This document shows positions 14,516 to 55,803 of a DNA stretch of 64,000 nt, in pieces (the first letter of the stretch is position 1; every line of letters starts with the position of its first letter). A model generated the notes under the pieces. It worked only from the letters and a program-made list of their open reading frames with translations, was not told the DNA's origin and searched no databases. Location: NCBI RefSeq assembly GCF_024713975.1, contig NC_091108.1, forward strand, positions 5,881,001 through 5,945,000, given 5' to 3'. A program made the position numbers and the translations under genes. The DNA is from Paralichthys olivaceus (taxonomy: Eukaryota; Chordata; Actinopteri; Pleuronectiformes; Paralichthyidae).

Positions 14516-17500
14516 TCACATGTGCTGCCAAGTTTTATCCATTGACTGAATGTGCTCTTTGGCCTTCATCCTGAGTGCTGCAATGCTGGAACTCCTGTCA
14601 TCCTCCATTGGGTATTTATCATTGAAGCTGGGAGGGCACTGGTAAGGAGGTGGGCCCATGGGCTGCATACCTTGGACCATGCCAGGCGGGGTGTTGAGAA
14701 AGCCATGGCTCGGATAGGTAGGCTGCAAGCCCTGCGGTGAGCCCATGAACCCTGGGATGGTATGCATAGGCGTGGCACTGGAGATGGGTGAGGTCAGCCA
14801 GGGATCTAGGGGCATCGCATTAGCCACAGGACCAGCGTTGGGAGGCATGGAAGGGCGACTGAAGGATAGCATGGGGGAATCGTGAAGCTTCATGGTGCTA
14901 GTATCCATCTTTTCTTGACGTCGCCACTTGGCCCTTCGGTTCTGAAACCACACCTGGCCCGAGAGAAATGAAATGAGATGAGATGAAGTGGCACTGAGAC
15001 CAAGAGCAAGAGTAAGAATGAAATCATCAGAAAAATACAAAAAAGAGGGGATTTTATTGTGTGCCGTTGACATTTTCAGAGATTTTCCAGGGAATAATGA
15101 ATGAAAAAGGCAGGCATATTTAGGGGACTGACATATGAGTGCAATTTGGGGTGGCTTGATTGAATTTAAGGGGACAGATGGACCTTGGCAGAGGTATACG
15201 CATTCTAGTTTTGTTGCATGTTCCATTAAGAGCCTGTTGTAAAATGGATTCGGAAGCATGAGCACTGGTTATAGAATTCAAATAAAACAAATAATCTAAT
15301 GATTAAATGTGTCACTTTGGCGTTATATAGTCTTTACCTGAACTCGGACCTCAGGCAAGTTGACCTTCATCGCCAATTCCTCGCGGCTGTAGACGTCTGG
15401 GTAGTGGGACTTCTCAAAGGCTCGCTCCAGCTCATGGAGCTGATAGGTGGTGAAGGTGGTACGATTTCTTCTGTGTTTCTTTTTAGTGTGCTCTTCCTCT
15501 TTTATGGTCTCTGGAGACCCTTCTACATCGTCCACGTTCTTCTGCAGGTCACTCATTTCTCCATCACACTTGTCACCTGAGAAGAGGTCAGATTCTGAAA
15601 TGAAGAATAGAAAGCATTAATAAGTATGCCATTTTTCTCAATTCAGAAGGGATACTTAAAGTGTCTTAAATAACGAAAGCAGACACCCATTTCTAATGTT
15701 TCCATTTTGGGGATTTATATCCATCCACATCTTTCAGAATTGATGAAACAACAACCAAGTGGCGTGCAACTGGTATCAAGCCACTAAGCAGCCCTTTAAT
15801 TTGGCAACACTACCATGTTCACAAATCTTATTTGGCAGAGTAAAGCCAAAGACGTGAGGGCAGAGCAAGGTTGAGCTAAAAGAGCAATTAAGGATCTAGG
15901 TAAGTATACGTAGGCTATGATCTAAACCGTAAAGCCAAATCCATCAGTTTAGGGGCCTCCTTGTGCATTACCTCACCAATAACATGACATAGTAATTCAT
16001 CTTTGAGATTTGACAACCTTAAAGACAATTTTTGGCTTTCCACAGACTTGGCTGGCATTTATTCAGATCGAATAATTCAAACGTTTTGAAAGCATTGGGT
16101 AAAACACTTGTCAAAATAGTGATTCACAAAGTAAAATTATAGTTTTTTTATGGACCAACCTTCAAACAGACATTAACTCCCCATGTTACTTGATACCTTG
16201 TCTCCTGATTTGAACCAGAAGTTGCGACTGTTGGTGGTATCAGACTATAAATTGTGTCCACAATAACAGTTCCAAAAAATTGGTCTTATTATTTGGTTCA
16301 GTCTGGAAACAGTTATGTAAGTAAAAACTAGACTTTAACAGTATTATGATCGCTAGACCTCAATCACTCTTATTACATATTCTTTATTCCTTTCTTTGGA
16401 AAAAAGAATGAATAATACTTGATCTACAATATATTGTATTTCATCTTGTTCAAGGACAAAAACATGTTACCAGAAAGAAACGTCTTTACTTGCGTAGTTG
16501 TGTAGTTATTTCAAAATAAATAGAATATTTTGGATATTCAGTCTGATCAAAAAGTGAAACGTTAACTCCTCTCCTCATGATAAAACAGCTTAATGACTGA
16601 TGAGCCTTTATACGGTTGATGGTTTGTGAACCCCAGGGGTTCAGTGAGTCCAAATGACAACATCTTTCACTGAATTCTTCCCTTGCAGTAATCCCATGGT
16701 AACAGATGCCACCAGTTAAAGCTGCGAGTGCCCGCCTCCTCTAATCTAACAAGGGACTTAAGTTGGCTTCTGCACAGGTCGAGTAAACAGTCATAGTCCA
16801 TATTGTGTTTTCCAAGAAATTGATGTAGAGCATGTGTGTCTGTGTGTGTGTGTGATGCACCAATGCTTTTTAATCGTATCAAATCACTTTCGGCTGCATG
16901 GTCAACAGATCACTGGTTTGCAATAAGAAGGATATCTGGCAGCAAAAACTTTGTGTTCAGAGTTTGTTGTGATATTCAAAGCGTACACCATATATATAAT
17001 GAATATAGAATGAATGGGATGACTTTTGTGAATGAAAACACAAATTTTCCATATCAGCAGCTTTCTGAACTGTAAACCTGTAAAATCAGTTGAAGTGTAG
17101 ATTGAACATTCTGAGAATCTACATGTTGTGTCAGTGAAAGATTGGTCAGAGAGCAGAGTCACACTATGGTGATGGCATATGGTTACATCTGTGGTATGAC
17201 AAGGCAATATACACCCCATAGTGGTTTGACACCTGCAATATCAGGAGCAATGTCACAGAGCAAATGTTAATCAGCAAATTTTCCCAGTGAAATACGAGTG
17301 TCCAAGGAGAAACATATCACTCCTGTCTCTTTTTTCTGTCCTCTGTCCATGCAATTCTTCTCCTCCATTGACCAGAAATGCTCAAGCCGTGCTCACCCAC
17401 CAATATCTGTCAGTTGTTGTTACTGTAGTCTGATGGTTATTGTACTGTTCGCATACCATATGTTGCTGCTATGATAATCAGCTGTGTATATTTGCCACCT

Positions 17501-19098
17501 ACATGCATAACATGCCATATTCACACTGTGGCAGGTAAGAAGATGCCGTTTTTAGGGGTCCATAGAATGCATATGACATTATTTGGGCTGAATAAGTTAC
17601 AGCAAGCCACATTCAGGCTAAATTAGTAATAAATCACTTATGGATTTGATAGTATCCATGATTCTAAGGTACTTTAACTGCTCTTATTGTAGGTTTTGCT
17701 ATAGCTTAGCAATTTATAAATGACAAAAACAACATAATTTCCATTAATTATTTCAAATGACATAGTAAAAGTGTATTAGATAGCAAACAGCAGGTGATTG
17801 TGTCAACCACATAGTATTTGTTTTCCAAAAGTGACTGAAAATTGAATGTCTCTATTAACATCCCTGATTTACAGTAGGTAGCAATGGTATAATCAAACAC
17901 TGGCCTCCAAAGCTCTTACTTTCAGCCAGAGCCACTTGTGTGAACCAACATAAGTCAAATCCAAAGAATATAAATTCTTAGCTTCCCAAAGTGACCCGTG
18001 CAACAGATATAATAATCAGAATGGACTTTTGTCATGATGAACATGCAAACAACAAGAGCACAAGTGAAGCTAATGACAATAACCTCAGCTCTCTGCCAGT
18101 CAGGTGTGTTGCTAAGAGACGATACTTGGGCCCTGGTACGAAAACAAGTGAATGGAACGTAACAGTGGGTATCATCAGCTGCCACATGTTTACAACATAA
18201 CAATGAAATGATTATAAAAAACGATGTACAAAGCATTCTTCAGTGGTAGCTTCTTATAGATAGATATAGAGCAGGTCAACACAGAATCTACGTGATGTGA
18301 TTAAGTCATGCATGTTTTCTCTAATTGGGACATGGGAGAAAACAGTCAGGAATCAAGAGTGTAGCTTGAACATTAAGCAAAGCTATATCATAATGTTGAG
18401 CTTGTTTTGCTCGAGAGCCATTAGTTGATAATTCATCATTCTACCACCGACTGGCCTTTATATTTGTTATTCTATAGTAGCCACTACAAATAAAAGTTGG
18501 ATAAAATTATATTATTCAAACAAATATTTGATCCATGCACACAAAGGATAACTTCACTAAATGTTGTCACTGTAATTTCAAAGAAGGAATAATGACCAAT
18601 AAAGAGAGTGGTTGCAAAAATTTTATGGAAGAGCGCTAATCCAAAACAGTGGGAAAACTTTTTGGGAGTATTGTATACTATACTCTGACAAACTTAGTTC
18701 CGCTCCAATTCCACTTGTTGCATGGTTCACGACAATATGTCCTGAACTTATTACAATTCAATTTACTAGAGTTTCTGTGGTCGACAGTAGCTTTTTTAAA
18801 TCTCAAAATACTCACCGTGGTAGGAAGAATGTTCGGAGCTGTCGCCCAGTTCTGGAAGGTGCCCGTATGGGTCTAGATGGACCTGCTTTTCAGGGTGATG
18901 TGGGTTTTCTCCGTTGGCTTTTTGGCTGTCACCATCTCCTACCGAATGGAGTAAAGGGTCCTGGTCTTTAGTGAATCCCAGTATGACATCAATACTGTGG
19001 ACCCTGCCTCCACTGCTCGACCCGGCACTTTTTGCAATGTCATAGTTGTCCAGGCAACTATCGTCCACTATTCCAAGGGCATCCATTGACAAATGCAT
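14516..19098 (-). CDS. rx2: Retinal homeobox transcription factor Rx (rx1/rx2 type)
   Basis: Three exons (18816-19098, 15338-15594, 14516-14953) join in frame to 325 residues. The Rx octapeptide-type motif HSIDVILGF is at residues 34-42. A paired-like homeodomain follows at about 136-195 ([20 protein letters not shown], then [15 protein letters not shown]), with glutamine at homeodomain position 50. The OAR domain [16 protein letters not shown] is near the C-terminus, just before the end DKTWQHM. The homeodomain is split by an intron before VWFQ, as in other Rx genes. Rx proteins specify the eye field and maintain retinal progenitors and photoreceptor genes. I chose the MHLS start as the family N-terminus; an in-frame ATG six codons upstream (19116) is possible. 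Whether this is rx1 or rx2 cannot be settled without a tree. Confidence 0.93.
15070..15214 (+). repeat. Dispersed non-LTR-type repeat, 3' end fragment, in rx intron 2
   Basis: It contains GGCATATTTAGGGGACTGA, GTGCAATTTGGGG and CTTGGCAGAGGTAT, and ends CATTCTAGTT. The same terminal blocks recur at 34266-34548, and in reverse orientation at 47326-47455 and 58085-58340. I know this sequence as a widespread teleost interspersed repeat, probably RTE/LINE-derived. Confidence 0.7.
15595..18815 (-). other. rx2: rx intron 1 (3.2 kb)
   Basis: No exon recognised. It holds a short TG run (16833-16854) and otherwise unremarkable AT-rich DNA. Confidence 0.7.
16833..16854. repeat. Short (TG)n run
   Basis: Imperfect TG repeat in rx intron 1. 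Confidence 0.85.
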
Positions 19099-22000
19099 CC
19101 GATCCTTCGTAAACACTTTTTCTCCTCCTCGAAAAAATTGGAATGTGACAAAGCAGGACTAAGCAAAGCAGCTGTTGTACAGAGCTCTTTAGGTTTTGCT
19201 TGACGTGCAATGGAGCAGATTTATGCGAAGCATGGGGGCCGTATCCTTTAAGGATAACTTCTGTGACGTTCAATATATTTTTTCCACAGAAGCAGAGCAA
19301 ACTTGCATCTTCAGCTGCAAGTGAAAAGACAAATAGAGTGAAGATGTGAATTTAGATTTAAAAAGTAACAAGTGCTCTCAACAAACTGTCATGTTATAGA
19401 TTAGACATGATACCCATATTACTAAGCAGATTTACATGTTAAACTACTTTAATAATTTATGTGAATATCTTCCAAAAATGTCGTGATACTTCACAGAGGA
19501 ATTTTGTGCTGGCATCATTTCCATTACTATTGATAATTATAGCCATAAACTTATGTTGTTGAACTAAAGTAAGAACATTTTATATGAAGAATTCAGCTTT
19601 GGATCTGAGTATATTTAGTATATAGCAATCAAATGATCTTTCAAAAGTGTTTCCCATTATTATTTACTTTAAAGAGTTAGCTACGAGTAGTTGGTTTATA
19701 CACCCCAAGACATTTGAGCCTTTTGACAGGCAGCAAAAAGCAAGCTGCAATCTTTTCAATATTTCACCTTTTAGTGAAATAATGAGCCTTGAAACTCTTT
19801 TCACCAAAAAATGTCATGGTTAAGAGAATTCACACAGATGAACATAAAGTAACCTTACCTTTCTTCAGGTTCCTGCAACGCACATGGTGTCCATAAGTAG
19901 ACTAATGACACTAACTACATGTAGTGTAGGCACTTGTTACTCCCAGTTAAGTCCTTGAAATCCCCTGCACACAAGTGAGCAAAGGAGCAACTGTTGGGAG
20001 TCCTCAGCAACAAGCACAGATAATGTTGTTCTCCGCTTTAAAAAACTCTCCTTAACCACACAAGACACCAAAGCTTGCGGGGGAATGGTAGTAAAACCAA
20101 AGGGTTTAAGAGGTTTATTAATTGGAATCCTTCCCCTTTAAGAATGACTGACAGTTGTTTTCTGGTCAAGTAATTGCTCCAAATGTGTCCTGCATTCAGA
20201 CCACAGAGGGAGGCCATTGCTAATGAAGCCTCGACAAAACTTTCTTTCAAAAAATCTATTGTCTGAAAGATAATGGCTCGTACTGAGAGTTTTCACTAAT
20301 CCTTTCATTATAGACAATGTAAGGGAGGAAAGACACAGAGATGGACTTTTAATTTGAATGACTACACACTGTTCATAAAATAGTTTAATTCAAATAGGCA
20401 CCTTATTCTTTATGAGCAGCACTGTGTTTGGAGCAGCAGACTTTAATAATGAAATGAAACAAAGAAGTGAATCACATGCAGTTTAAAGCAAATTTTTATA
20501 CATTAGATTGTTTTGTAGAGGAAGAGGAACAGGCTTATTTTTTGTTATATGGTTCTCTAATTAATTTTGTATCTATTTTTTTAAATTATTGTTACTATAA
20601 ATAGTACAGAACTAATGAGATGCCCTGAACTATATATATAATAATAGAGTAGATGACTGATGCTGCACTTTTCATGGTTGTATCAGGAGGACCAGCAACA
20701 AGGCAATTGAGTGATGAGTTAAAATGCAGGTCTAGATGGGCAAAGTAATAAATGGACAATCCTCTAACCTACTTTAACCTAATTAGCCTAGTTTAACCTA
20801 ATTAATTCAAACACGACCAATTAGTGGACAAAACCAATGTTGAACCTAGTTCCAATCATCCCTTTAAAATGTCGAATCATATTGTTGTCATGTGTAGAAT
20901 AAATAAACAAATAGCATGGCCTGTCAGACTATAAACTTGTTGCACTGCCTCCGATGGTCCACTGGAATAAAGTTGGGGGTGTTGCATCCTGCAGCCTACA
21001 CAGTTATACTTGGCAGAACCAAAGCTTTGGCAGCTCCAGTAGGTGTTGCAGAGATCAATCCCATCCTTAATGAGCCCAAAGACTTCACAAGAGATTTCCT
21101 CTGACCTCACTCCTCCTGTATGTGTAGATATATTTAGGAGCTCTTTGCACGTCAGACTCCATCATAAAAAAAGTGGAGTGCCATTTTTGTGCATATCTAC
21201 ATAAGAAAACAAATGTTCCAAAAAATGCTACTTGTCTTGGAGTCATTTTTTTTTCTGATATTATTTTAGATTTTTTGTATTAAGAAAAATATTTTTGGGA
21301 GGAACTTTGCAGATCATTGAAAGTATAAAAATGTTAACTACCTGCATACTTTATGTTATTAGCCCTCATTACACAGAATAGTGGAAAGTATAAGGCTCAA
21401 AACTTAATTTAAAAGGCCATGTTTCAAGGAACGGTCTTCCATCAATAGATACACCATTTTCTATGAGTCAGAGTGACACAAACGTCTTCACACTTGTTTC
21501 TAGGAAGAGCATATGTCTAAGCAGCTAAAGAATTTTAAACGCCAACAAGTTTAAAGCCATCTGGCAACACTAGGCTGTGTTGCCAATGCTTTCGCTGGGC
21601 AGATTGCCTATGGGTTAAGTGGCATTGGCCCTACACCTTTTTATGGTTGTCAAGGTTCTTTTCCAAGAAAGCAGAAACTGCAAAGCCCATTACTTTTGCC
21701 TGAGACCGACAAGCTTTCCTAACAGACACACGGAGTAAAGAATTTAAAGGTGCCTCTGTGGCAGGATTATCTGTGAAGTAGGTTGCTCCCATATGATGAC
21801 GGTAAGCCAGGTAAGACAGTCAGCCATGTGAGGTGTTTTTTGCAGAGCTAGCTTTTTCCAACTTTACTTTATGCACAAATACAAACAAAAAAACAGGCAT
21901 AAACAGCCAATTTTCATATTGATGTATTCATCATTAAATAAGATAATAATGCTGCTTTTAATATCTGGTAGTTTTGACTCTCGTCAAATATTTTGCAACA

Positions 22001-22830: not shown

Positions 22831-24897
22831 TAGGAAGAAAGCGGCTAATGTTTAAAGGCGCTGTGTCAGCTTACAAGGGGGAAAGGGGGATGGTGAGCGC
22901 CAGGGGTATGACAGGGAGACAATGGAAAGGGAGGGTAAAACGCTGGTCATGTGATCAGTTTGAACGTGAAGGAAAAGCTTACAGTGTCACAGTGTACAGT
23001 CGTAGATGTGCTGGTTCAATATCAATATCTTTTTTTATTTTTTACTTGAAAAGGAATCTTTATTCAATCCCGATGGTTCCAATTTGAAAAAGTAAAAAAT
23101 ATGTCTAATGTCTGTAAAAACAAAAAGATGAACTAAAACAATTCATATATGTGAGTCAACAGAGGAGGACAAGCAGGTATCAGTGTAGAAATTCTAATCC
23201 TAGATTATGCAGTATGTCCTATAATGTGGTCTATAGGTACAAGCAATTCAAAATGGCTGCCCAAGCAAGGTGCACACACATCCAGGGGAGAAAATGGATT
23301 GATAGTACTATACTTCTTTTGTGTGCTTATTTTAACCCAGTGTTTGTCCTACAATGACGTATAAGTCGGGGAAAAAATATATCATTGGAGCAATCATGTA
23401 TATATATCTTTTAATCTTTCAGCTTGTCAATTCTGTTAACCACCTCCACTCATCCAGATTACAGGACCTGTATTGCCCTATGGTCTTCTTCTTCGTTAAT
23501 TGGCAGGTGGCAACCAACATCAAGGCATCAACGCCATCCACTTGGTGTTTCAATATCCGACTTCTTCTTCTTCCCCATTTGGTAGTATATCTCTTATAAC
23601 CCTTAATAGCAAGGGGGCCACCTGCCGCTGGGCAAAGGAAAGAAGAACACAGACACACAGTAGATGGAAGTAATGCACCTTGATGTTAGTTGCCAACCGC
23701 CACTAAACTGAACAAAAAAGAACACTGTAAATTAAGCAAATGAGTTCTGACTCATGAAGTTGGCAAATTAATTTCAAGAAAGATTTGTGAGGTTGGATTG
23801 AAACATTGAACTTGTTTGGTCAAACACTGAAATTCATGTCACCGGATCTTTGAAGGTTTGAGCAGGTCCAGTTTATTTCTGATGAACAGTTAGAGTCCAC
23901 TTCTCCTCTGCAGTCTGCTTTATCTCTGTCACCGTGGCCTGGGCTTTGGTTTTCAGTGTATCTGCATCCATGTTTTGAAGCTGATGGAGGAATGGATCAT
24001 TGGTCTCTTCTTCCTCATCTTCACACACCATTTTTGCAAGGTCCTCTTGGAGGTCAATGTCATCTCTGGCCATCTGAAGTGTGGCAGTGTCTTGAGTATT
24101 TTTATATTTACAGTCTGTTTGATGCATAACTGTTTGCACATTGTAGCATGTTTGAATGTGTCCCAAATCTCTTTATCCTCACTCCACCTTGTCCAAGAAG
24201 CCTAAGCTCAAACAAGTGTGTCCACGCATAAGCACAGTATATTAAAAGGTTAGAGGGTAGACAAAGAAGCAGGTGGCTTTGAGTAAAGCTTTCCTTAAAG
24301 ATCAGTGTCTTGTCATCAGCAGCATTACCAAAAGGCATTACCACATTACAGTAATGTTGTTAGCAAGGGAAAACAATTGACACCAGCAACACCAGAGCAG
24401 AGTCAATGAGCTCACTCTATGAAACATTATCTTATTAATCAATTACTCACACGTTACTGTTTGGGTGTGGTTAGACAAGCTATTTACTCGTCCTCATCCT
24501 TCTATGTCTGTGTGGATCTGTGAGAATAGGAGAAGACTACTATCTTGTTTTTTTTTTTATCCTCGCCACAGTTGCAGTTTATTCTCATTTTTACTCTCAA
24601 AGTTATGAGGGAAGAAATAGTTCTTACATCTTTATACCTTAGAACAGGTTCACTAAGATTTGCAGTTACTTGGTGTCTGTAAGTTCTTTGACAGCGCTGC
24701 ACTTCCACTTCTGTGCTCAAGACTCTGTGAGAGTTTTGTGCTACAGTCATCACTGTCTGGATACTGCAGATGACCTGAAACTGTGAATGAGTCACAGACC
24801 TAGATACTGACTCTTAGACAAAACAAAATGTGGACTCTCGCACCTTATTCCTAATATTGTAATCGACGTATCTATTATCACCCAGACCCTAGTTTTG

Positions 24898-24932
24898 ACA
24901 TGTCTGTTTAATCAACTGTTAAACAGACATGT
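24898..24932. repeat. Perfect 14-bp inverted repeat with 7-base loop
   Basis: ACATGTCTGTTTAA (24898-24911) is followed by TCAACTG and then its exact reverse complement (24919-24932). It could form a stem-loop. It lies inside the broken complexin locus. Confidence 0.85.
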
Positions 24933-25179
24933 TTAAAAAATATAATTTTAAAAAGTCGACAAACTTCTGAAATATTAGGAGAGAAGATACTGTCTAATAT
25001 GTTTAACTTTAAATTCTATCCAGATGTGGAATAGAGCTTGAATAATGGTCAAATAAAATTCTAAATGATAAACAAAACTTAGTGAAATCCTTTGTCAAAG
25101 TGATTTTTACTAAAATGACCGACATGTCATTCAGTTCACAGTTTCAGTTGGACAGTGAGACCCTAATGTCATTAAAATC

Positions 25180-25480
25180 TGCCTTTTTACTTGATAATTG
25201 AAGATAACTAGCACATCTGCATTACCTGAGAGTTTAAGGTGATTAAATAATAATTGTTTTAAAGCGCACTGCCTAAGAGATGTGTTTAATGGCACTTCTT
25301 GAAACTGAGCCCTGATGAGTTATTGCACACGGAGCCTAATCTGCTTCTCTGGCTAATTTGAGCGCAGAGGAAATAAACCCCCACCTAAAGCTACCTTTTA
25401 AGCCTGGCTCGCATCCGTTGATGTCACACATGCATCACATAACGCCATAGAGGGAAGCTAGTTCAAACTGCCTAATGCAC
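25180..25480. promoter_or_regulatory. Candidate noncoding element within the complexin remnant
   Basis: A repeat-free block with several TAAT cores (GTGATTAAATAATAATTG, CCTAATCTGC, GGCTAATTTGAG). It could be an rx enhancer preserved in the intron of its decayed neighbour. This is inference from composition and position. Confidence 0.25.
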
Positions 25481-26383
25481 GCCTGCACACTTATCTAAAG
25501 AACTGTCAATCAATCCATTTCAGTTGTTGTGGGTTCGCTACAAGCAGTATTGCTATTAAATCAATAACACTCATCGTATTGTAATACATTGTGCACAACT
25601 CAAATTGTTGAATTTTGTGGCAGATAAACCACATCTGGAGGAGTTTGCTAAAAAATGATCCAGAAGAGTTGTAGCAATACATATGATTTAAAAAAAAAAA
25701 AAAAAAAACTGAGATGGATGGATGATCATAATGTCTCTTAACTTCTTTGAGTTTGAATTAGAAGGAAATCCTGAGCCATGTAGTCTGTCTTTCAGTTTCT
25801 TATTACACCTGCTGGTATCTGAAGAAGTTAGAATTTTTAGTTTGTGTGTTTTTATGTAGGTGGTTCTGAGACAAACATGAAGCAGGAGCCTACTTTAAGT
25901 AATACTCATCACACCTGCTAATCCCTGCTTATGGATATTTAGGTCATATTTTCTATGCTATGCAATTCACAAAGCCCATTCTCACATTAATTATACGCAC
26001 TTTTGTCCATGGAATATCAGATCTCAGTATTATCTTTTAGGCAAAGTCCATCTTCTGACAGACACAAAAACATTGAGACATTTTTTAACATTATTTAAGA
26101 TTCATGCTGTGCATAAGGAAAGTCAATTTACAAAGCAGCTTTCATACACAGAGATAGATTCATGGTGCACAATAGATTTTAAGCAGGACTTCAGTTTACT
26201 TGTTGTTCAGTCATAAACATGATTTTCTTTAGCAGTGTAGCCAGTCGTCATATTAGCATCTTTGCTTACTCACTTTTCTTCCACCAGCTGCCTCTGGTAC
26301 TCTTCAAACTCCTCCCTGGATAAGCCTTTGGATTCTGGTGTTTCCTTCCCATGTGTTTCTGCTTCCTCATCTTCATCTTCCTC

Positions 26384-27783
26384 CTGTGGTGAAACTTTTC
26401 AACTTTACCCCCCCAATGCCATAGCTGTCTTCAAATAGACATGATTTAATCCTACAGGGATGACGGGAATCGATGGCTGCAGGATAAGTATAACGTAAAA
26501 ATCTAATCTTGATGTCTAAATCAAGAAATTAACAACAAGAGACACTAACTATTCAGACTTCTCGAAGAGAAACCTTTGCTATTGTGTGCCGAGATGATCA
26601 GACTGTATCAATAACTTGTGGCAGGCGTAAAACCTCTCAAGAGCTTAGCTCATAATTGGCAGCCAACAGACAATGAAGAGTCTTTGTACAAGATGCAGGA
26701 GGAAGACCCTCAGGATGAAGGCCGCTGTCTGCATCCCCATTAATTACCTCTGCCAAGGTTATGTTTGAGCCTCTGTCCATTGGTTTGTGTGTTTGTTTTA
26801 TTTATTGGTTTCCACTGACTCCAAAACACATATCTCAAACAACACCTGGGTAGATGCCTGAAAGTCAAATATGATTTGATAGTGACATTTGATGGTGTCA
26901 ATCTCACGCTCAGCTTCAGCAGTTCAACAGCACAGTTTACACCAGTTAAAGTTCCTGATGGGATTCCGGTCACTTGTAGATTTGTAACTGTAACTTAAGC
27001 TGACTCAAGTTGCACTAAGATGCTTAAAATCTCACTGATTAGCTTCATCGTCCTCCACCTTCGTCATATTGTCCTCATGAGACTCAGTATTTTAAGAACA
27101 CAGTTGACTTAACACCTCAGTGACCTAAAACCTTTGTACCAACACAGAACTAATAAGGCTGTGCACATTAAGCTTTTCGGATTTACATACAATCACATAT
27201 AGGATCTGTTTAAATTATTCTCCACTCAGACAGACTGAAGTCACATTATTCAACTCTAAGAGGATATTGTAACATTGACATTTATAATAATATAAAAACA
27301 TTCATTTTAGATAGCAACTTACACGGACATAAAATCCATTGACCCTTCACAAAAAATATACAGTTAAAAAAAAGAGAATAAAATAAATAAAACAAACCAT
27401 TGGACAAAGACACAAAGCTGATGTTTACTGTAGAAAAGTGACTGTTGGAAAACTTGTTCAGCTGCCAAGAGAAAAACAACTGGACTTTCCGACCTATTGG
27501 ATATGCTGACTACTGGTGGCTGAGTTCATGCACTATGACAAGGGCTAACATTTCATAAGGTGATTTTTATAACATTTATTAATTCATTTATGTGTTTATT
27601 TAATTTATTCAAGTACCAATCAAATGTGAGAATGTCCCTTTTAATAGTTCTCTTGAATTACTACTGTCATGTTATTGATTTGATCCTGCTGCTGTGCTTG
27701 AAAAACTTGAGTAGGATTCATTTCAGATCAGTCCTGTCGTCCCATAAAGACAGCAAACACTTCTCTCCTGTCTTTTTTCACAG
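26384..27783. other. Region between complexin remnant and SLC1 gene
   Basis: No coding exon recognised. A repeat-like stretch begins at 26746. The end of the region should contain an upstream noncoding exon of the SLC1 gene, because an acceptor (TTTTTTCACAG) lies just before its start codon. Confidence 0.45.
26746..26960. repeat. Probable interspersed-repeat fragment
   Basis: It starts CCTCTGCCAAGGTTATGTTT and continues with CTGTCCATTGGTTTG. This resembles the start of the non-LTR-type repeat block seen at 34266, where AGGAGGTCATGTTTTCA is followed by CTGTCC. Boundaries are uncertain. Confidence 0.4.
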
Positions 27784-27799
27784 TCTGTCAGGACCAACA

Positions 27800-30700
27800 A
27801 TGAAAGAGATGGAGACAGGCTCTCATCAGTCTGAGTTGGACTCAGAACCTCAGGAAATTCAAACATACCACAGATGTAATATTGTGGCTTTCCTGAAGAG
27901 AAACACTTTTGTTGTTCTCACAGTTACAGCTGTTGCATCAGGTAAGTGGTCGTCAAACATGCTGCACATGTGGACATTCTGCTTTTATCCACCACTGATC
28001 TGTTTTGACACAATAATTCACTAACCTTTGCTTATGCTTCTTTGAGGAATTGGCCTGGGCTTTGCTCTACGACCCATTAACATGTCAGACAGCGATATAA
28101 GATACCTAATGTTTCCTGGAGAGCTGCTGATGAGAATCCTGCAGATGCTGATGCTTCCTCTCATCGTTTCAAGTCTGATATCAGGTAAGATGCACACTTC
28201 AGCCTGGTGAAATTGGATTTTCAGGCTCTCGACAAAAACACGGTTTGACCCACATTTCATGTCGTAATAGCTCCTGTTAATAATCAACATAGTGGATAAA
28301 CACAATCATGGCTGGAGTGTCGTCTGTGTGTAGAATGAGGCTCTTAAAGATGGTAGCTGTTACCACTATAGAGAATAAACCCATTTAACATCCTGTATGC
28401 AAATTTCCCAATGTGGATGAAGAAATATCTGTTCATAGTTCCATTTTTCCATTGTATGATTAGGTATTTTGATTTTATCTCGTTTATTTTTTAATACTCT
28501 GTTATAAATGTCAAAATAATGTTTAAAGACTGTATAGATTTATATTTACATTTTACTTTTTGAATGAATGAATCAGGTTTTCAACCCAATAAAGAACTGA
28601 TCGCATAATTCAACAGATTTACATTTATACAGTATATGAATGTAAACTTGTTGCACCTTCTCTTTTCATCAGGCCTGTCGTCTGTGGACAGGAAAGCTTA
28701 TGGGAGAATTGGTCTGAGGGCATTTTGCTACTACATGCTCACCACACTTATTGCTGCATTCACTGGTATAGTTTTAGCCGTCATCATCCAGCCAGGGAAC
28801 TGGTCCAGGAACACCTCAGCCTCCTCTGGTGGTAGAGCGGAGGCTGTGCAGAGCGTGGACGCTTTTCTAGATCTAATCAGGTTTGTGTGGTGATAATCAC
28901 AAACTAAGAGGGATTTCTAAGGGTACAGTTTGATATCAGCCTCCAAAAACACCTCATATATGTTTTTATTTACAGAAACATGATCCCCTCAAATCTGGTT
29001 GAAGCTTGTTTCAGGAAGGTGAGATCTGCTGTGGCTATGATTTGTCTTCATACTGATACTCTCACACATTATTACTGACTTTCAACATCTGCTTGTTCTC
29101 CAGTTTAAAACAGTTTATTCCAGAAGTGTTTCTACAGGAATTAGTATCACTGAGGCCAGTGTTAACAGTGAGATTGCTCTTTTTTTTAAACTGCTGTATA
29201 TAATTTTCATTATTTTTATTAATATTGAAACAATATAATTTCATCACTTACTTTGCTGTCATCATTTGGACCCTGTAGATTACACTGTACCAGTGCCGGG
29301 CTCGTCAGATGGTATTAATATGTTGGGGCTGTTGGTCTTCTCTGTTGCCTTCGGCCTCATTCTGGGCAGCATGGGGTCACAGGGGAAACCTCTGAGGGAT
29401 TTCTTTGACTGCCTTAATAAAGCTGTTATGCATCTGGTCAACATATTCATCTGGTAAGCACGAAAATCTCACATATAGATGAACAGCTATGTTTGATTAT
29501 TTGTAAATTATCAGGATTATTAAACTTGGTGGAAGGATGCAGTATGGGCCAGGAAAGGACCCAGTGCTGTGCTATATAAATGCTCGTTTTTCTTTATCTT
29601 TATCTTTGTTACAAGGTTTAGTATATGTAATATGTGCCATGATTCTGCCCTGAACCCAACCTCTGAAAGTATATTATGGTTCTGTTTTATAGACTCCTTA
29701 GTTATGGACATTTTCTTTCTTTATAGATTTGTATTAATTCTGTGTTTCCTGTTTTATTTTGAATTTCTGATCTCCCTCATGAGTTTTTGTCCCTTTTACT
29801 TCCTGCCTTTGTGTGCGTTTCCGTCCAGTTTTGAGATCTGGATCTGTTTCACCTGGTTGTCCTGTGTCCTATCAGTTCAGTTTGTATTTGTTGAGTTGTC
29901 TATCTAGTCTTTGCCTGTATTGTCTCTGTCAGCTTCAAGTTCTGTATCCTGCCTTGTTTTTCCTGAATGTTCGAGTTTTTACTTTCCTGCCAGGCCTTCC
30001 CTATGTTTTATGTTTTCATTAAATTCTGTGTTTTGTGAAGTGGACTTAGATATCCAGCATCCTCATGCCATGAACAACAAATATCTCTATGTATAGAGCC
30101 TCCTTCATTTTCTCTGGACGGATGTGTCTCACTTCTGTGTATCACAGGTATTCCCCTGTAGGAATCCTCTTCCTGCTGGCAGGGCAGGTTGTGAAGATGA
30201 CAGATACAGTAGAGATAGGCCGGGAAGTTGCGATGTATGCTCTAACTGTGATAGCTGGCCTGCTAATTCACAGTTTCCTCACTCTGCCCCTCATCTATTT
30301 TGTTGTCACATGGAAGAATCCCTTCAGATTTATGAGCGGTGTCCTGCAGGCTCTCGCCACTGCCTTTGGGACTTCATCAAGGTGAGCCAGTGTGTTCAAA
30401 TCAAACATAACGGTTTGACGTTGTTAAAACGTCTTTGCTCCTCTGTGTTTTCACAGCTCCGCAACCTTACCTGTAACTCTCCACTGCATGGAGGTAAATC
30501 ATAGCATGGACAAACGGGTGACCCGCTTCATGCTACCTACTGGCGCCACAATGAACATGGATGGTGCTGCACTCTATGAAGCAGTGGCAGCTTTATTCAT
30601 AGCCCAGATCCATCACATGAATTTTGGCCTGGGTCAAATCATCGTCCTCAGGTGCACGTGGCTTCACACACATACACGGCCAATTCTAAGATGACTGCAA

Positions 30701-49352: not shown

Positions 49353-52284
49353 CCACGTCACAGAGCTTAAGGCCGAGACTTATCAGATTTGACATTTGAC
49401 TAAATTTGTGCAAGGTTTGAGTCAGTGGGTCACATGTCAAGAGGTCTCAACACTAATTTGTCACGTATAGATCACTGAAAGTGCGAAGACGGACACAGCG
49501 ACATGTTGCTCAGAGCTGAAACGTGAGGAGAACTGACCACGCTGACTCTGGCAAAGCTTAATCAAAGATAAGCAGAACATGTGTCGCAAGAAACCTGATG
49601 ATCTGCAGAGCTGCAGCTGCCACACAGCATGAAATTCACCATTCATCACACATTTCTATTTTCATTCAGGTTAAACCGCAAAAATCAGCGTAGCTTTATT
49701 CAAACTTACTATAATCGTGTATCAGGAGGAACTTAAGTATCCACATGAGTTGAGATTTGCCCAAGGTTAATGATTTTAACTTGTCAAACATTTTGTCAGC
49801 GTCTCACCTGTCTTGTCTCCCCATGATCTGTGGTAAACCCTCAGGATCTATCATTTTACTCCTCAGACTGGCAGTGTGAGGCCTCGGGGGGGAGGACAAC
49901 AGGTATAATCCTTGTAGGGGAAGCTTTCTTGTGGTAAAACCATTTTAAGACCATCATCTTCGTTAAATCTCACAAGAAGCAAAGCCTGGATACCTAGATT
50001 CATGGGATAAGATATATTCAAAGCGTACAAGAATTAGTCTTTCACTCAGGGAGAGATCTGCTGCTGCTGTGTACCATGAAAACAACCAGAAACTTTATTT
50101 TATTTCCAAGCAACATTACTTTACAGAAAACATTAAGGTTTTTTTGTGGCAACATTTATTGTGATTTGTTTACTTTCACGTCAGACACACAAGAAAGACT
50201 CAATTCAACGTTAATACTCACTCGCTAAATTTTGTGGGTTACATGTCCTGCTCGGGAAGTCTTGTGCCAAACCAGTGCTGAGGATCTGCGGCTCTTATAA
50301 ATCTGGTCTGGAGCAGGGCGGAGCTGAACTCTGCAGCAGGGGAAGGTTTCTTTTTTTTGCTAAGAATAGAAAAGCACGCAGGCTCACCATCATGTTGCCC
50401 TATTTGGCAGAGGAAACACACACCGTGATACTTCAGCTGAGAGGCGACAAACACTGGAGTCCATCTGTAGATTCTTCTAAATGTGTGAGACCCACACCAT
50501 GCAGCCTCACATGTCCCTGTACCTGAGTCATGCCAATAATCTTTAATCTTTAGTTAAAGTTTATGTTTGTACCTGAGCTGCACAGTAAAATAGGCAACAT
50601 GCTGCACAATCTGAACTCTCTGAAGTCACCACACTGAAGTACCCTCCTGTTGTTGTACTTACATGTCTGTTCTTAACTTTTCATTTCTTTTTAAACGTGT
50701 GTTCTTCTTTTAATTGACTGACTATAAAACATGATGCATTGTCTTATTCTAAAAACAACTTCTCAACTGGTCATTCTAACATGTGATTAAAACTTAAATG
50801 GTGTTTTGTTTGAAGTGAAAACATCAGTGCAGTTAGAATGGTTTAAATGTGTCAACTAAAAAAATATGAATAATGTGAGTCCAGCAACTTCTTTTCCTTT
50901 TTCCTTTCTGAAGGAAAGTTTGATGACAATCTCCACGTGGAGTCACCCGTTCTCTATTTGTTTTATTCTGTGTTATCACTGTATCGACGTTGCTTTTGGC
51001 ACATAGAGAATTCACCTTTGAACCTGAACAGCCACATCTGTATAACTTTAGGAGGGCGCCTGTTAATGGTCAGTCAGTGATGCGCAAGGTGAATGAATAA
51101 AAAGTGAATGAAAGTCACAAGACAACAACAGTTCACTGGGTTTTAAGGTTTGATTTGTCAGAGACTGAAATTTGTATAAAAGGATGTTACAGTAAACATA
51201 TTGAGTCAGAAAACAACACAGGAAATAAAGATGCCAGTGAAAAGAAGGCAGAGCCAAAAAAGGGGAAATATAATTTAAGGAATGAGAAATATTCATATCT
51301 ATATTGATGCCAAAAAATCTCAGTTAAAAATTAAAATGACTACATATAAGAAGTATTGAAGGGCCAACCAACTTTTATTTCAAGCATTTGTGTTTTAAAT
51401 AGAAATTGGAGTTGCTTGCATATGTTGCTCAGTTTGGGTTTGAAACATGGAAACTGGGCTTAAACGTAGACACAAGTATTAAATACGTTGTTGGACTGTT
51501 TGGTTTTTAAAACAAGATTCGTTCACAACAAAGTCAGTGAAGCCATGACTGAGACTAGAGGACCTCTTTGAATGGACTCATGGGATCTGTAGGACTGATG
51601 ATGAACTCTCCACAGTGGGAAGGCACCATGTAGACGCAGCCTGCCACCGTGTGGTGGATATATAGTCCTGCATGAGACCTCGGCTCCGAGGAGAGTTGTT
51701 AACACGCATCATCAGATACTTCATGTGTTTGCTTGATAAACTGAACATTTCAGACACTTTGATGATATGAAATAATGATAATCATCATTTTTTTCTAAAG
51801 TCAATCTTATACATCAGAGACTTATTAATATGTGTTTCTCTGCAGCTCATAATTTAGACAACGACCGATGTGAAAGTTAAAAACATTATTCAACAGAAAG
51901 CTTTGTCTTTATTCCTGCAGTGTTCTGCTCCTTGAAAACGACCAGGTTGACTGGTAACATTCAGATGACTGCAGCTCACACCCGTGCGTAAAGTTTACTC
52001 AGCAAACTCCCTTGTGTAAGTCTTGTGTAACTGGACCAAACCACGGGCAGGGATGGGTTAAACTTTCTTGACAGAAACTTTGACTTTGCATCAGTAACTG
52101 GGCTGAATTAGATAAATGAGTTTTGGGGGAAAGACTCGAGCCCTCCTCTCCTCTCCTCTCTGTCAGTCCTCCTCAGATCTGATATGTTGTTGTGCGTAAA
52201 AGGAACTGAGTGCGCACTACATGTCATCAATTGATTTCTCATTAACTTATTGAAGGGATTTCACTTTCAATTATTTTTACTGCC

Positions 52285-54706
52285 ATGGCGAGATGGTCAC
52301 TTTTACTTTTATACTTTTTCCAAGGACTACTTCCCCTCATCTTTGGACAGCAGCGCACCTCTGGGCCCTGGCGGCACCGGATTCAGTGGCAGAACAACGG
52401 ACAGGTTTACAGTTTAATGAGCACTGGATCGGAGTACCAGGCTCCGGTTCGCTCCAGAAGCCAGTCGAGGGTTTATGTGAGCGGCAGGAGGGACGGCACC
52501 AGGAGCCAGATGTCGGGAGCGCACAGAGGAACGATGCTTGTAAGAACAGGGCAAGGTGAGTCCAGAGTGACCAGGACTGACCCAGGTGTACAACCAGGGT
52601 CATATACACCAGGGCGCGATGGTAGACCGTTCGTGCCCGTTAATGCTCATGCATGGACCAGACAGCAGCCCGAGCGCACTCAAGGAACCGGAGCTGCAGG
52701 TTATCCAAACGCACGACGTCTTGGACCTGAACACACCAACAGCATCAACGCTTCTGCATCGGTGACTTCAAATGATTTCGCTGGCAGAAGAGGAGGTGTG
52801 AGTGTGGACTCCTCTGCGCCGCGCACCGCTGGAGGAGAACCGGGGCCCGGTGCCCAATACCAACAGTTACGCACGGTGCCACAGGCAGTTCCTGTCTTCA
52901 GGCAGACAGGTCACTCCAGCTCAGCCTATTCCACAACTCTGGAGAGAGAATCTGAAGGTACCTCTTCGTTAACTGCAGCTTCAGAGGATGCTTCAAACGA
53001 GGCGACCACTAACAGAGAGGACATGGTTAACGACGATCCTCGAAACCCGTTTAAAAACCACAGGAATTCAGTTTTCTATAACATGTATCCCACCAGAGGG
53101 AGGTCAGGGGCGAACCGTCCACCTGACACAGGATATGGAACAAGATACTTTCAAAATGGTAAGAGTCCTAATCACATTTATGAGATCATCCTTGTTAATT
53201 AGCATTAAAATGCGCAAAGCTGGTCTGCAGCTACAGCAGCATTCACTGGTAATGAGGTAGTAGAATGTTGCATTAGGGGATAGACTACACTTGGAAAGTA
53301 TACATTTAAAAACAAGTACTTACTGAGTATAAAAGTTAATGTGGTACTTTTACTCAGGTAAGTAAATTGTGTGTATTTATGTGTACTTTAACTTGAGTAA
53401 AATATTTCAGTACTTCCTCCGCCATTGTCAGGATGATACCTATTCACCCTAAATCTGTATCTCACTCACTAAGAGAAAAAGGATAAATGTCAAGAAGGGA
53501 ACAATCCTGTTGGTGCAGTTGATTCCAGAATGACGCATCAGGAATGTAAGATGAAGAATTATTTCAACAAGACACAACAGCTGCTTTAATTTACTGGTTT
53601 ATTCTAAGCATGAACAGAGAGTGGTTCAACATCAAAATCTCAAATTTGGATTGTCCCTTTAATTTCCTCCAGGACTGCCAGACCTTGTGCCAGACCCATA
53701 TGCCATCCAAGCAGGTGCTTACATCCAGCGCATGCAGATGTATTCACTCCGCTGTGCAGCTGAGGAGAACTGTCTGGCCAGGTAACCTGCGGTGCCAGAA
53801 GTGATTCACCACTTCAGTACGCTCATAACAGCACGTAGACACTGAAGCAGACACACACACAGACATGTATTTCCTTTGTTTTTACTGCTTGGCGAAGATT
53901 CATTTGAGGATTGAGGAGAATTTTGGGGTGGTTTAGAATATCTTTGAATTATCTCAGTTTCCTTGAGGATAACTGTTTCGTTGATGGAGTTACAAAACCT
54001 GTTTGACCTTATTATGGAGCAGTGATTCTCCGACATCATGTCCTGCCAAGACATAAATGTTCTGGATTGGTTTTCCCAAAAGCATTAAGTGAAATGGAAC
54101 AAACTCTTTGCGCTCTGTTACTTTTAAGAAAGCTAGTCTGCAGGAGCTCAGCCAGTAGCACTTTCCAACTCGCTTATGTCCATTTCCTCCTGTGATCCAT
54201 CCAAGGTCAGCTTATGGACCCACCGTACGGGACATCGACTTCAGAGTCCTCCTGAGGTTCCCCCAGAAAGTGAAGAATCAAGGCACCTCCGACTTCCTGC
54301 CCGTCAAGCCGAGATATCAGTGGGACTGGCACAGCTGTCACCAGTGAGTCTACACAGCCTGACACGAAAGGAAATGACCTTAAAACATTCGAAATGTTGT
54401 GATTAGCACGGCTCCACTTTCATCGGAAAAACACCACACCCTCAAAATTCAGTCAAAGTTTTGGCCTCAAAGACATTCCTGATCTCTGCTGCGAGGAAAA
54501 AAAAGTTATCACTCTGTTCTGTCCACCCTCAACCTCAGGCACTACCACAGCATGGACGCCTTCAGTAACTACGACCTGTTGGACGCCATCACTGGACGTA
54601 AAGTAGCCGAGGGACACAAGGCCAGTTTCTGCCTCGAGGACACAGGCTGTGAACCTGGATTCAGGCGGCGCTACGCCTGCACATCCCACACACAGGTAAA
54701 GGTAGC

Positions 54707-54774
<68 letters not shown>

Positions 54775-55803
54775 GGGACAATGGACCAAAGTATAGTGTC
54801 TTATCTAATGTTATTGTATCACATTAAAACAGTGATGACATTTAGGCTCCAGAGTAAGTATTTTGGTTTTTTTATCTTCCAGCTCCACGTCTGAGACAAG
54901 TTTTTCTAACTAAAACTGATTTATGCCAAAAACATCCTGAAGACGTTGGAATATTTATTATATCTTGTCTGGGTCAGAGCTCTGTGATTCTGGATTTCCA
55001 CTCTTTAGTCCTGGTGTCTCGTAACATCTTGACTTCCAGGAGCCGTTTGTATAAGTTACTCTCAAATCTGCCTCATCTGCAGCACTTGTTGGAAAATTGT
55101 CGTCAAACTACACTCAGGGTTTTGGATGTTGGGTTGTGTTTTTCAGGGTCTGAGCCCAGGATGTCACGACGTCTACGCCGCCAACATCGACTGTCAGTGG
55201 ATCGACATCACTGATGTACCTCCAGGAAACTATATCCTGAAGGTGACTGTCAGGTTGACTTTATATCAACCAGTCGACTGCAGAATATCTTTCTGATTCT
55301 TATTTCTCATCATGGAGATTGATTTTACGAACCTGCCTGCAGAGCAAACTCTTATTTGAGATTTCTTTTTCCCAGGTAACTGTCAATCCCAATCTCCACG
55401 TCCTGGAGTCGGACTTCACCAACAACATAGTGAGATGTGATATCACGTACACAGGAATTTATGTTCAGACGCGCAACTGTCGAGTAGCAAGGTACTGAGA
55501 GAATATGACAAACGCTGCATGAGTTTAGTTTAAACGCTTATTAGGAATATCTCATCATTAACCATTATCCAATGAATATCTTGTATTTAATAATTATCAT
55601 AATTATGAGGCCAAATAAACTGTTAAATCCCGTTAAATTAGCAGATACATTCAATGTTAAACAGCAGAAAATATGGTTCTTTATTTTAGTTTGGATAAAA
55701 ACATGAATGTATAGAGGTTGTCTGATTGCATGTGTAAGATTCTGTATCACTGTTCTGTGTACAAACTTTCTCATTTCTTTCTCTCTCTGTTTCCAGGGGT
55801 TGA
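52285..55803 (+). CDS. Lysyl oxidase (LOX/LOXL1 clade), collagen and elastin cross-linking enzyme
   Basis: Seven exons join in frame: 52285-53158, 53673-53781, 54206-54343, 54539-54695, 55147-55242, 55376-55491, 55797-55803. They encode 498 residues. After a signal peptide ([21 protein letters not shown]) comes a long basic propeptide, then [11 protein letters not shown] at the expected BMP1 processing site. The catalytic domain carries the copper motif [12 protein letters not shown]. The LTQ lysine lies in [12 protein letters not shown] and the LTQ tyrosine in [13 protein letters not shown]. Both LOX (MVxDDP, GYGTRYF) and LOXL1 traits ([40 protein letters not shown], YTGxYVxxxNC) are present, so I give no symbol. 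The last exon adds only two codons and the stop. AATAAA at 56541-56546 is a likely poly(A) signal. A GATA array begins 11 bases past the intron 4 donor. Confidence 0.92.
53280..53430. repeat. Dispersed repeat, 'stepwise TACT/AAGTA' family, copy 3, in lysyl oxidase intron 1
   Basis: GTGGTACTTTTACTCAGGTA, TGTACTTTAACTTGAGTAAA and CAGTACTTCCTCCGCCATTG are the signature blocks of this fish repeat. Confidence 0.7.
54707..54774. repeat. (AGAT)17 microsatellite next to a splice donor
   Basis: A perfect tetranucleotide array of 68 bases that begins 11 bases after the donor GT of lysyl oxidase exon 4 (54696). Confidence 0.97.

Follow-up and report, generated by a model that had tools for sequence, protein, structure and literature searches.

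A probable unitary pseudogene of a cplx4c-type complexin beside an rx homeobox gene in Paralichthys olivaceus

Complexins 3 and 4 and their intact genes in this fish

In the CPLX3/4 genes that Zanazzi and Matthews examined there are three exons, the second being exactly 88 nt long and coding for a part of the SNARE-binding helix, and the products end in a CaaX box (PMC2941751). In the same study CSK is placed beside CPLX3, and LMAN1 and RAX beside CPLX4, and zebrafish 4c, for which counterparts in medaka and Xenopus are suggested, is 57–59% identical over the whole protein to the other zebrafish CPLX4s, compared with 76% between 4a and 4b (PMC2941751). A review covers what complexins 3 and 4, and their CaaX box, do at ribbon synapses (PMC11536687). 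In mouse rods complexin 4 is described as the predominant complexin in the light-dependent regulation of release; at rod synapses it lowers or clamps the sustained release of transmitter, and without it light signalling is desensitised (PMC10932955).

We analysed a genome of 588 Mb in 25 contigs and, within it, a window of 64 kb (C16:5881001-5945000; positions given without a contig are those of the window, the whole stretch of DNA under analysis), which contains no N. Genome-wide we found two intact CPLX3/4 genes, against the five of zebrafish (PMC2941751): cplx4a (C18:9104868-9109847) has three exons and ends in CSVM, and cplx3 (C1:8031856-8035557) ends in CSLM. Both obey the family rule, each with a second exon of 88 nt. 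A genome-wide search with the Pfam Synaphin model (E ≤ 0.001) gave 12 exon matches in five places (C8, C9 twice, C18 and C1), and the window locus described below was not among them.

Exon relics in the window and the missing exon 2

The first-pass annotation of the window had described two CPLX3/4-like exons on the minus strand, and both of the peptides that it quoted are indeed present, in exon 3 (23873-24100) and in the tail of exon 1 (26274-26398). When the cplx4a protein encoded in this genome was searched against all 588 Mb, exon 3 was recovered (E=7.4e-12) and so was exon 1 (E=0.035), and against the window alone exon 1 gave E=2.9e-8; with the Synaphin model exons 3 and 1 gave E=0.0031 and E=1.1, respectively, both below the curated cut-off. 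In exon 3, 39 of 71 aligned codons specify the same amino acid as in cplx4a (55%), compared with 31 of 70 for cplx3, and the mismatches to cplx4a fall 25, 18 and 45 at the three codon positions (71 codons), which is a coding pattern. Judged by these homology E-values and by this codon-position pattern, the window exons are the relics of a CPLX3/4 gene that coded for protein. A search of solved structures with the exon 3 peptide returned no complexin and one match, to a Dicer-related helicase (E=0.021), and a search for fish DNA in a collection of viral contigs gave four pattern matches, none of them a relative.

What is left of exon 1 is an open frame that encodes KVSPQEEDEDEEAETHGKETPESKGLSREEFEEYQRQLVEEK, with its last codon split, and that ends in SREEFEEYQRQLVEEK at the conserved phase-2 donor. 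The donor itself, at 26274, reads AA before the junction and GTGAGTAAG after it and is intact, in the phase found in the intact paralogues. The frame holds no in-frame ATG, so that the family's three-exon open frame from a start codon is absent here; immediately upstream stand two in-frame stops, TAA and TGA (26399-26407, minus strand), and the 5' side of the exon carries CACCACAG. Uncertain remains of the coding start may lie at 26408-26442 (minus strand), in a stretch (26388-26442) that weakly resembles the CPLX3 N-terminus in a shifted frame (p=0.08 at the protein level, 60 shuffles; p=0.035 at the nucleotide level); the equivalent search with cplx4a gave p=0.23 at the protein level (60 shuffles) and a best nucleotide match (p=0.044) at another place.

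Exon 3, in contrast to cplx4a and cplx3, has lost its acceptor. From its homologous start to its stop it is open, including all of the conserved part (60 codons tested), in a frame that reaches up to 24172; it starts with Asn, as does the cplx3 paralogue, and contains an in-frame ATG from which 66 codons are open. At its ancestral acceptor site (24101-24102, minus strand) AA stands in place of the AG of both intact paralogues, and when exon 1 is joined directly to each of the 11 AGs between 24215 and 24066 the exon 3 frame is kept at only one of them, after purine-rich sequence. At the other end, the loss of the CaaX box that the first-pass annotation had reported is evident in the translation: the cysteine position is occupied by Trp, the frame continues for seven more codons to end at 23873, and the tail WTLTVHQK (23876-23899, minus strand) stands in place of the CSVM and CSLM of the paralogues. 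The broken exon 1 and the lost acceptor add to the damage that the annotation had listed. Of the columns of exon 3 that are identical in cplx4a and cplx3, the relic keeps 24 of 41 in that alignment, and among the changed ones are the G of AGDD and a P that follows six residues later, both of which cplx4a and cplx3 share. Not every changed column is a sign of decay, because 4c-type divergence is partly ancestral.

The open state of exon 3 bears on the age of the loss. In a simple neutral model, in which 4% of substitutions make stops and indels are assumed to amount to 8–14% of substitutions, the chance that exon 3 stays open is 26–40% after 0.05 substitutions per site and 7–16% after 0.1. Because the latter chance is low, under this model either the death of the gene must be recent or exon 3 must still be constrained or kept for some reason. 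Since exon 3 is still open and has a coding-type substitution pattern, an ancient loss is not likely. Beyond the exon 3 stop, at a distance of about 165 bases, there is an inverted repeat (23495-23708) with arms of 31 nt that are 84% complementary and 152 nt apart, which resembles a small MITE.

The interval expected to hold the 88-nt exon 2 (24101-26273, minus strand) contains none that we could find. In the interval the cplx4a exon reached a protein score of at most 34 (p=0.06; mean of the shuffles 28) and the cplx3 exon one of at most 22 (p=0.99), compared with a score of 98 for the paralogue's exon 2 peptide in each of the two intact loci, which served as a positive control; among five stretches of the form AG-88 nt-GT the best scored 24 and contains a stop. 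The claim that no intact SNARE-binding helix lies between the two exons thus stands, and an intact helix exon elsewhere in the interval was looked for and not found. The suggestion that a remnant of exon 2 survives at 24650-24760 did not hold up, since 24640-24770 scored at shuffle level in four tests (p = 0.29, 0.93, 0.996 and 0.72). Another candidate remnant, at 24808-24849, was rejected: its match to cplx4a exon 2 was not significant under two of three scorings (p=0.07-0.15), the best match under the third lay elsewhere (p=0.27), and the best matches to cplx3 exon 2 lay away from it in all three. Removal of exon 2 by a transposon was likewise rejected, as a repeat search against the genome, in which very common words were skipped, found no long dispersed repeat in the interval. 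The seven other genome places that the interval does match, over 40-54 bases each at 85–90% identity, all correspond to 26115-26171, a small dispersed repeat.

Significant exon homology in gene order together with disabling lesions makes it highly probable that the locus is a pseudogene, whichever copy it derives from. Decay would have removed or erased exon 2, and with it the SNARE-binding helix, disrupted exon 1 in its start and its frame, destroyed the exon 3 acceptor and replaced the CaaX box, and we infer that no functional protein is made from the locus. We think it improbable that the gene was instead rebuilt, such that exon 3, perhaps with exon 1 and a new upstream exon, encodes a short, cytosolic peptide that resembles complexin but lacks the helix and the lipid anchor. 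The in-frame ATG of exon 3 with its 66 open codons, the coding-type codon-position pattern, and the intact exon 1 donor with CACCACAG at the 5' side of that exon would all suit such a gene; against it stand the missing ATG in exon 1, the break of frame at 10 of the 11 candidate AGs, the absence of both the SNARE-binding part and the anchor, and the altered G and P residues. Still harder to credit is an assembly artefact in which exon 2 was dropped or collapsed from a gene that is actually intact. Although the locus is known from a single assembly, the window is free of N, the damage to exon 1, to the acceptor and to the CaaX box does not depend on exon 2, and the genome search with cplx4a shows no orphan exon 2 elsewhere, yet finds exon 2 of the C18 gene (E=2e-11) and of the C1 gene (E=0.001).

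The rx neighbourhood and the identity of the copy

The annotation had also placed an rx gene beside the complexin locus, and rx homeobox frames were found in the window, downstream of the relic and on the same strand (14519-19158, minus; open frames 18799-19158, 15326-15616 and 14519-15268, these being the ends of frames and not of exons). We take this gene to be of the rx1/rx2 type. Its closest paralogue is a third rx gene, on C3, whose last exon is 71–72% identical to it, compared with 47% for the rx gene on C18. On C18 the gene order, on one strand, is a gene that we take to be lman1-like (Pfam legume-like lectin, E=0.0004, below the curated cut-off), then cplx4a, then what is presumably rx3. 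The published zebrafish order lman1-cplx4a-rx3 is the basis for this last name (PMC2941751).

The intact C18 locus and the relic share gene order and strand with respect to rx, a spacing of some 4 to 5 kb, and the phase of the exon 1 donor. On C18 about 4.4 kb separate the end of the last complexin exon (9109847) from the start of the rx3 exon 1 frame (near 9114200); in the window, in the same order, about 4.7 kb lie between the end of the relic (23873) and the start of the rx exon 1 frame (19158). The two differ in that cplx4a is intact and adjoins the lman1-like gene and rx3. Because order, strand and spacing with rx match those of the cplx4a-rx3 locus, the lost copy is most likely the cplx4c-type ohnologue, as distinct from the cplx4a beside rx3, which survives intact on a different contig. 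cplx3 on C1 belongs to the same family and has the same exon phases as the relic but is intact; among the listed ORFs of at least 65 aa within 10 kb on each side of it no rx neighbour was recognised, and a GDNF/GAS1-domain gene lies in its neighbourhood.

MATK flanks RAX2 in mammals, and a cplx4c gene is expected in this MATK/RAX2 block. The window has the rx1/rx2-type neighbour; MATK was not seen in the window and sits beside the C3 rx gene, where in 30 kb (G000:C3:13308501-13338500) we found upstream of rx a gene with a kinase domain and an SH2 domain closest to MATK/CHK (E=2e-32). No complexin was recognised in these 30 kb, the best candidate (E=0.045) being on the other strand and containing a stop. 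That C3 keeps MATK without a complexin whereas the window keeps the relic suggests that the fish genome duplication was followed by complementary losses. From the comparison of the three rx neighbourhoods (lman1-like/cplx4a/rx3 on C18, MATK/rx on C3, relic/rx in the window), we infer that the window copy would fit a third ohnologue of the block, and its level of divergence matches that of zebrafish cplx4c. Both are divergent CPLX4-type sequences with similar identity to cplx4a (55% for the relic, in exon 3 only). The relic, unlike zebrafish cplx4c, is without exon 2, start, exon 3 acceptor and CaaX box, and the zebrafish gene is expressed and enriched in rods (PMC5806438).

Neither search for a further copy of the relic's type, with the cplx4a protein or with relic exon 3, found one in this assembly among the scored candidates, scores having been limited to candidates from a loose first look; relic exon 3 rose above noise only at C18 (4.6e-12) and C1 (2.0e-8), and the cplx4a protein only at C18, C1 and the window locus. 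Exon relics in conserved gene order, with intact paralogues elsewhere, are what unitary pseudogenes left by ohnologue loss after whole-genome duplication look like, and the relic shares all of these features and shows no difference in kind. We put at roughly three in four the probability that the locus is a unitary pseudogene of a cplx4c-type complexin, the CPLX3/4 ohnologue beside the rx1/rx2 (RAX2-type) gene. That a pseudogene was instead left by a teleost-duplicate (cplx4b-type) or cplx3-type copy is unlikely, if less so than a rebuilt gene. The Asn at the start of exon 3, as in the cplx3 paralogue, would agree with such an origin; however, the neighbour is an rx1/rx2-type gene and not rx3, identity is higher to cplx4a (39/71) than to cplx3 (31/70), and identity between the relic and cplx4a is far below the 76% given for zebrafish 4a and 4b (PMC2941751).

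The proposal that a CPLX3/4 copy was lost beside rx is thus upheld by several separate lesions, with the intact paralogues of the same genome as controls, and such a gene loss would be of an ordinary but informative kind. Among the matches listed in the open-licence literature, searched by title and start of abstract, there was no description of a fish complexin pseudogene. Divergently oriented with respect to the relic, and about 1.4 kb from its exon 1, is an SLC1A/EAAT-type glutamate transporter gene (about 27800-30700, plus strand). A lysyl-oxidase-type gene lies at 52246-55495 (plus strand), of which 55259-55495 matches Pfam Lysyl_oxidase (E=6e-9), the remainder being placed by eye.

Rods and the meaning of the loss

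In sorted zebrafish rods cplx4c is reported as enriched (logFC 2.86, FDR 8e-13) and cplx4a as depleted (-2.13), in rows that we assigned to the top-50 transcript tables of that paper by their sign and place in the text (PMC5806438). In P. olivaceus we found, at C6:19606543-19607574, an intact rhodopsin frame of 359 codons without introns, which over 345 residues is 77% identical to the bovine query; because of this frame, rods are presumably present in this fish. The remaining cplx4a and/or cplx3 may then cover the role of the lost copy, possibly in rods. That the fish has discarded the complexin that is rod-enriched in zebrafish while keeping its rods is a tentative proposal, to which we give well under even odds. 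If true, the ribbon synapses of its rods would rely on cplx4a or cplx3, or operate with little CPLX3/4, and the fish would be a counterpart in nature to the Cplx4 knockout mouse, with clamping and light adaptation of release from rods both altered. A rhodopsin-keeping fish without a cplx4c-type gene would offer a natural test of whether rods need a complexin of their own, and the loss would help to show how often CPLX3/4 ohnologues are dispensable in fishes; if it is common to many fishes, it would be ordinary ohnologue attrition. Elsewhere in the genome there is a cluster of opsin first exons (G000:C2:12581212-12602967), within which one match (C2:12587419-12587823) has three stops and represents either read-through into an intron or a broken copy.
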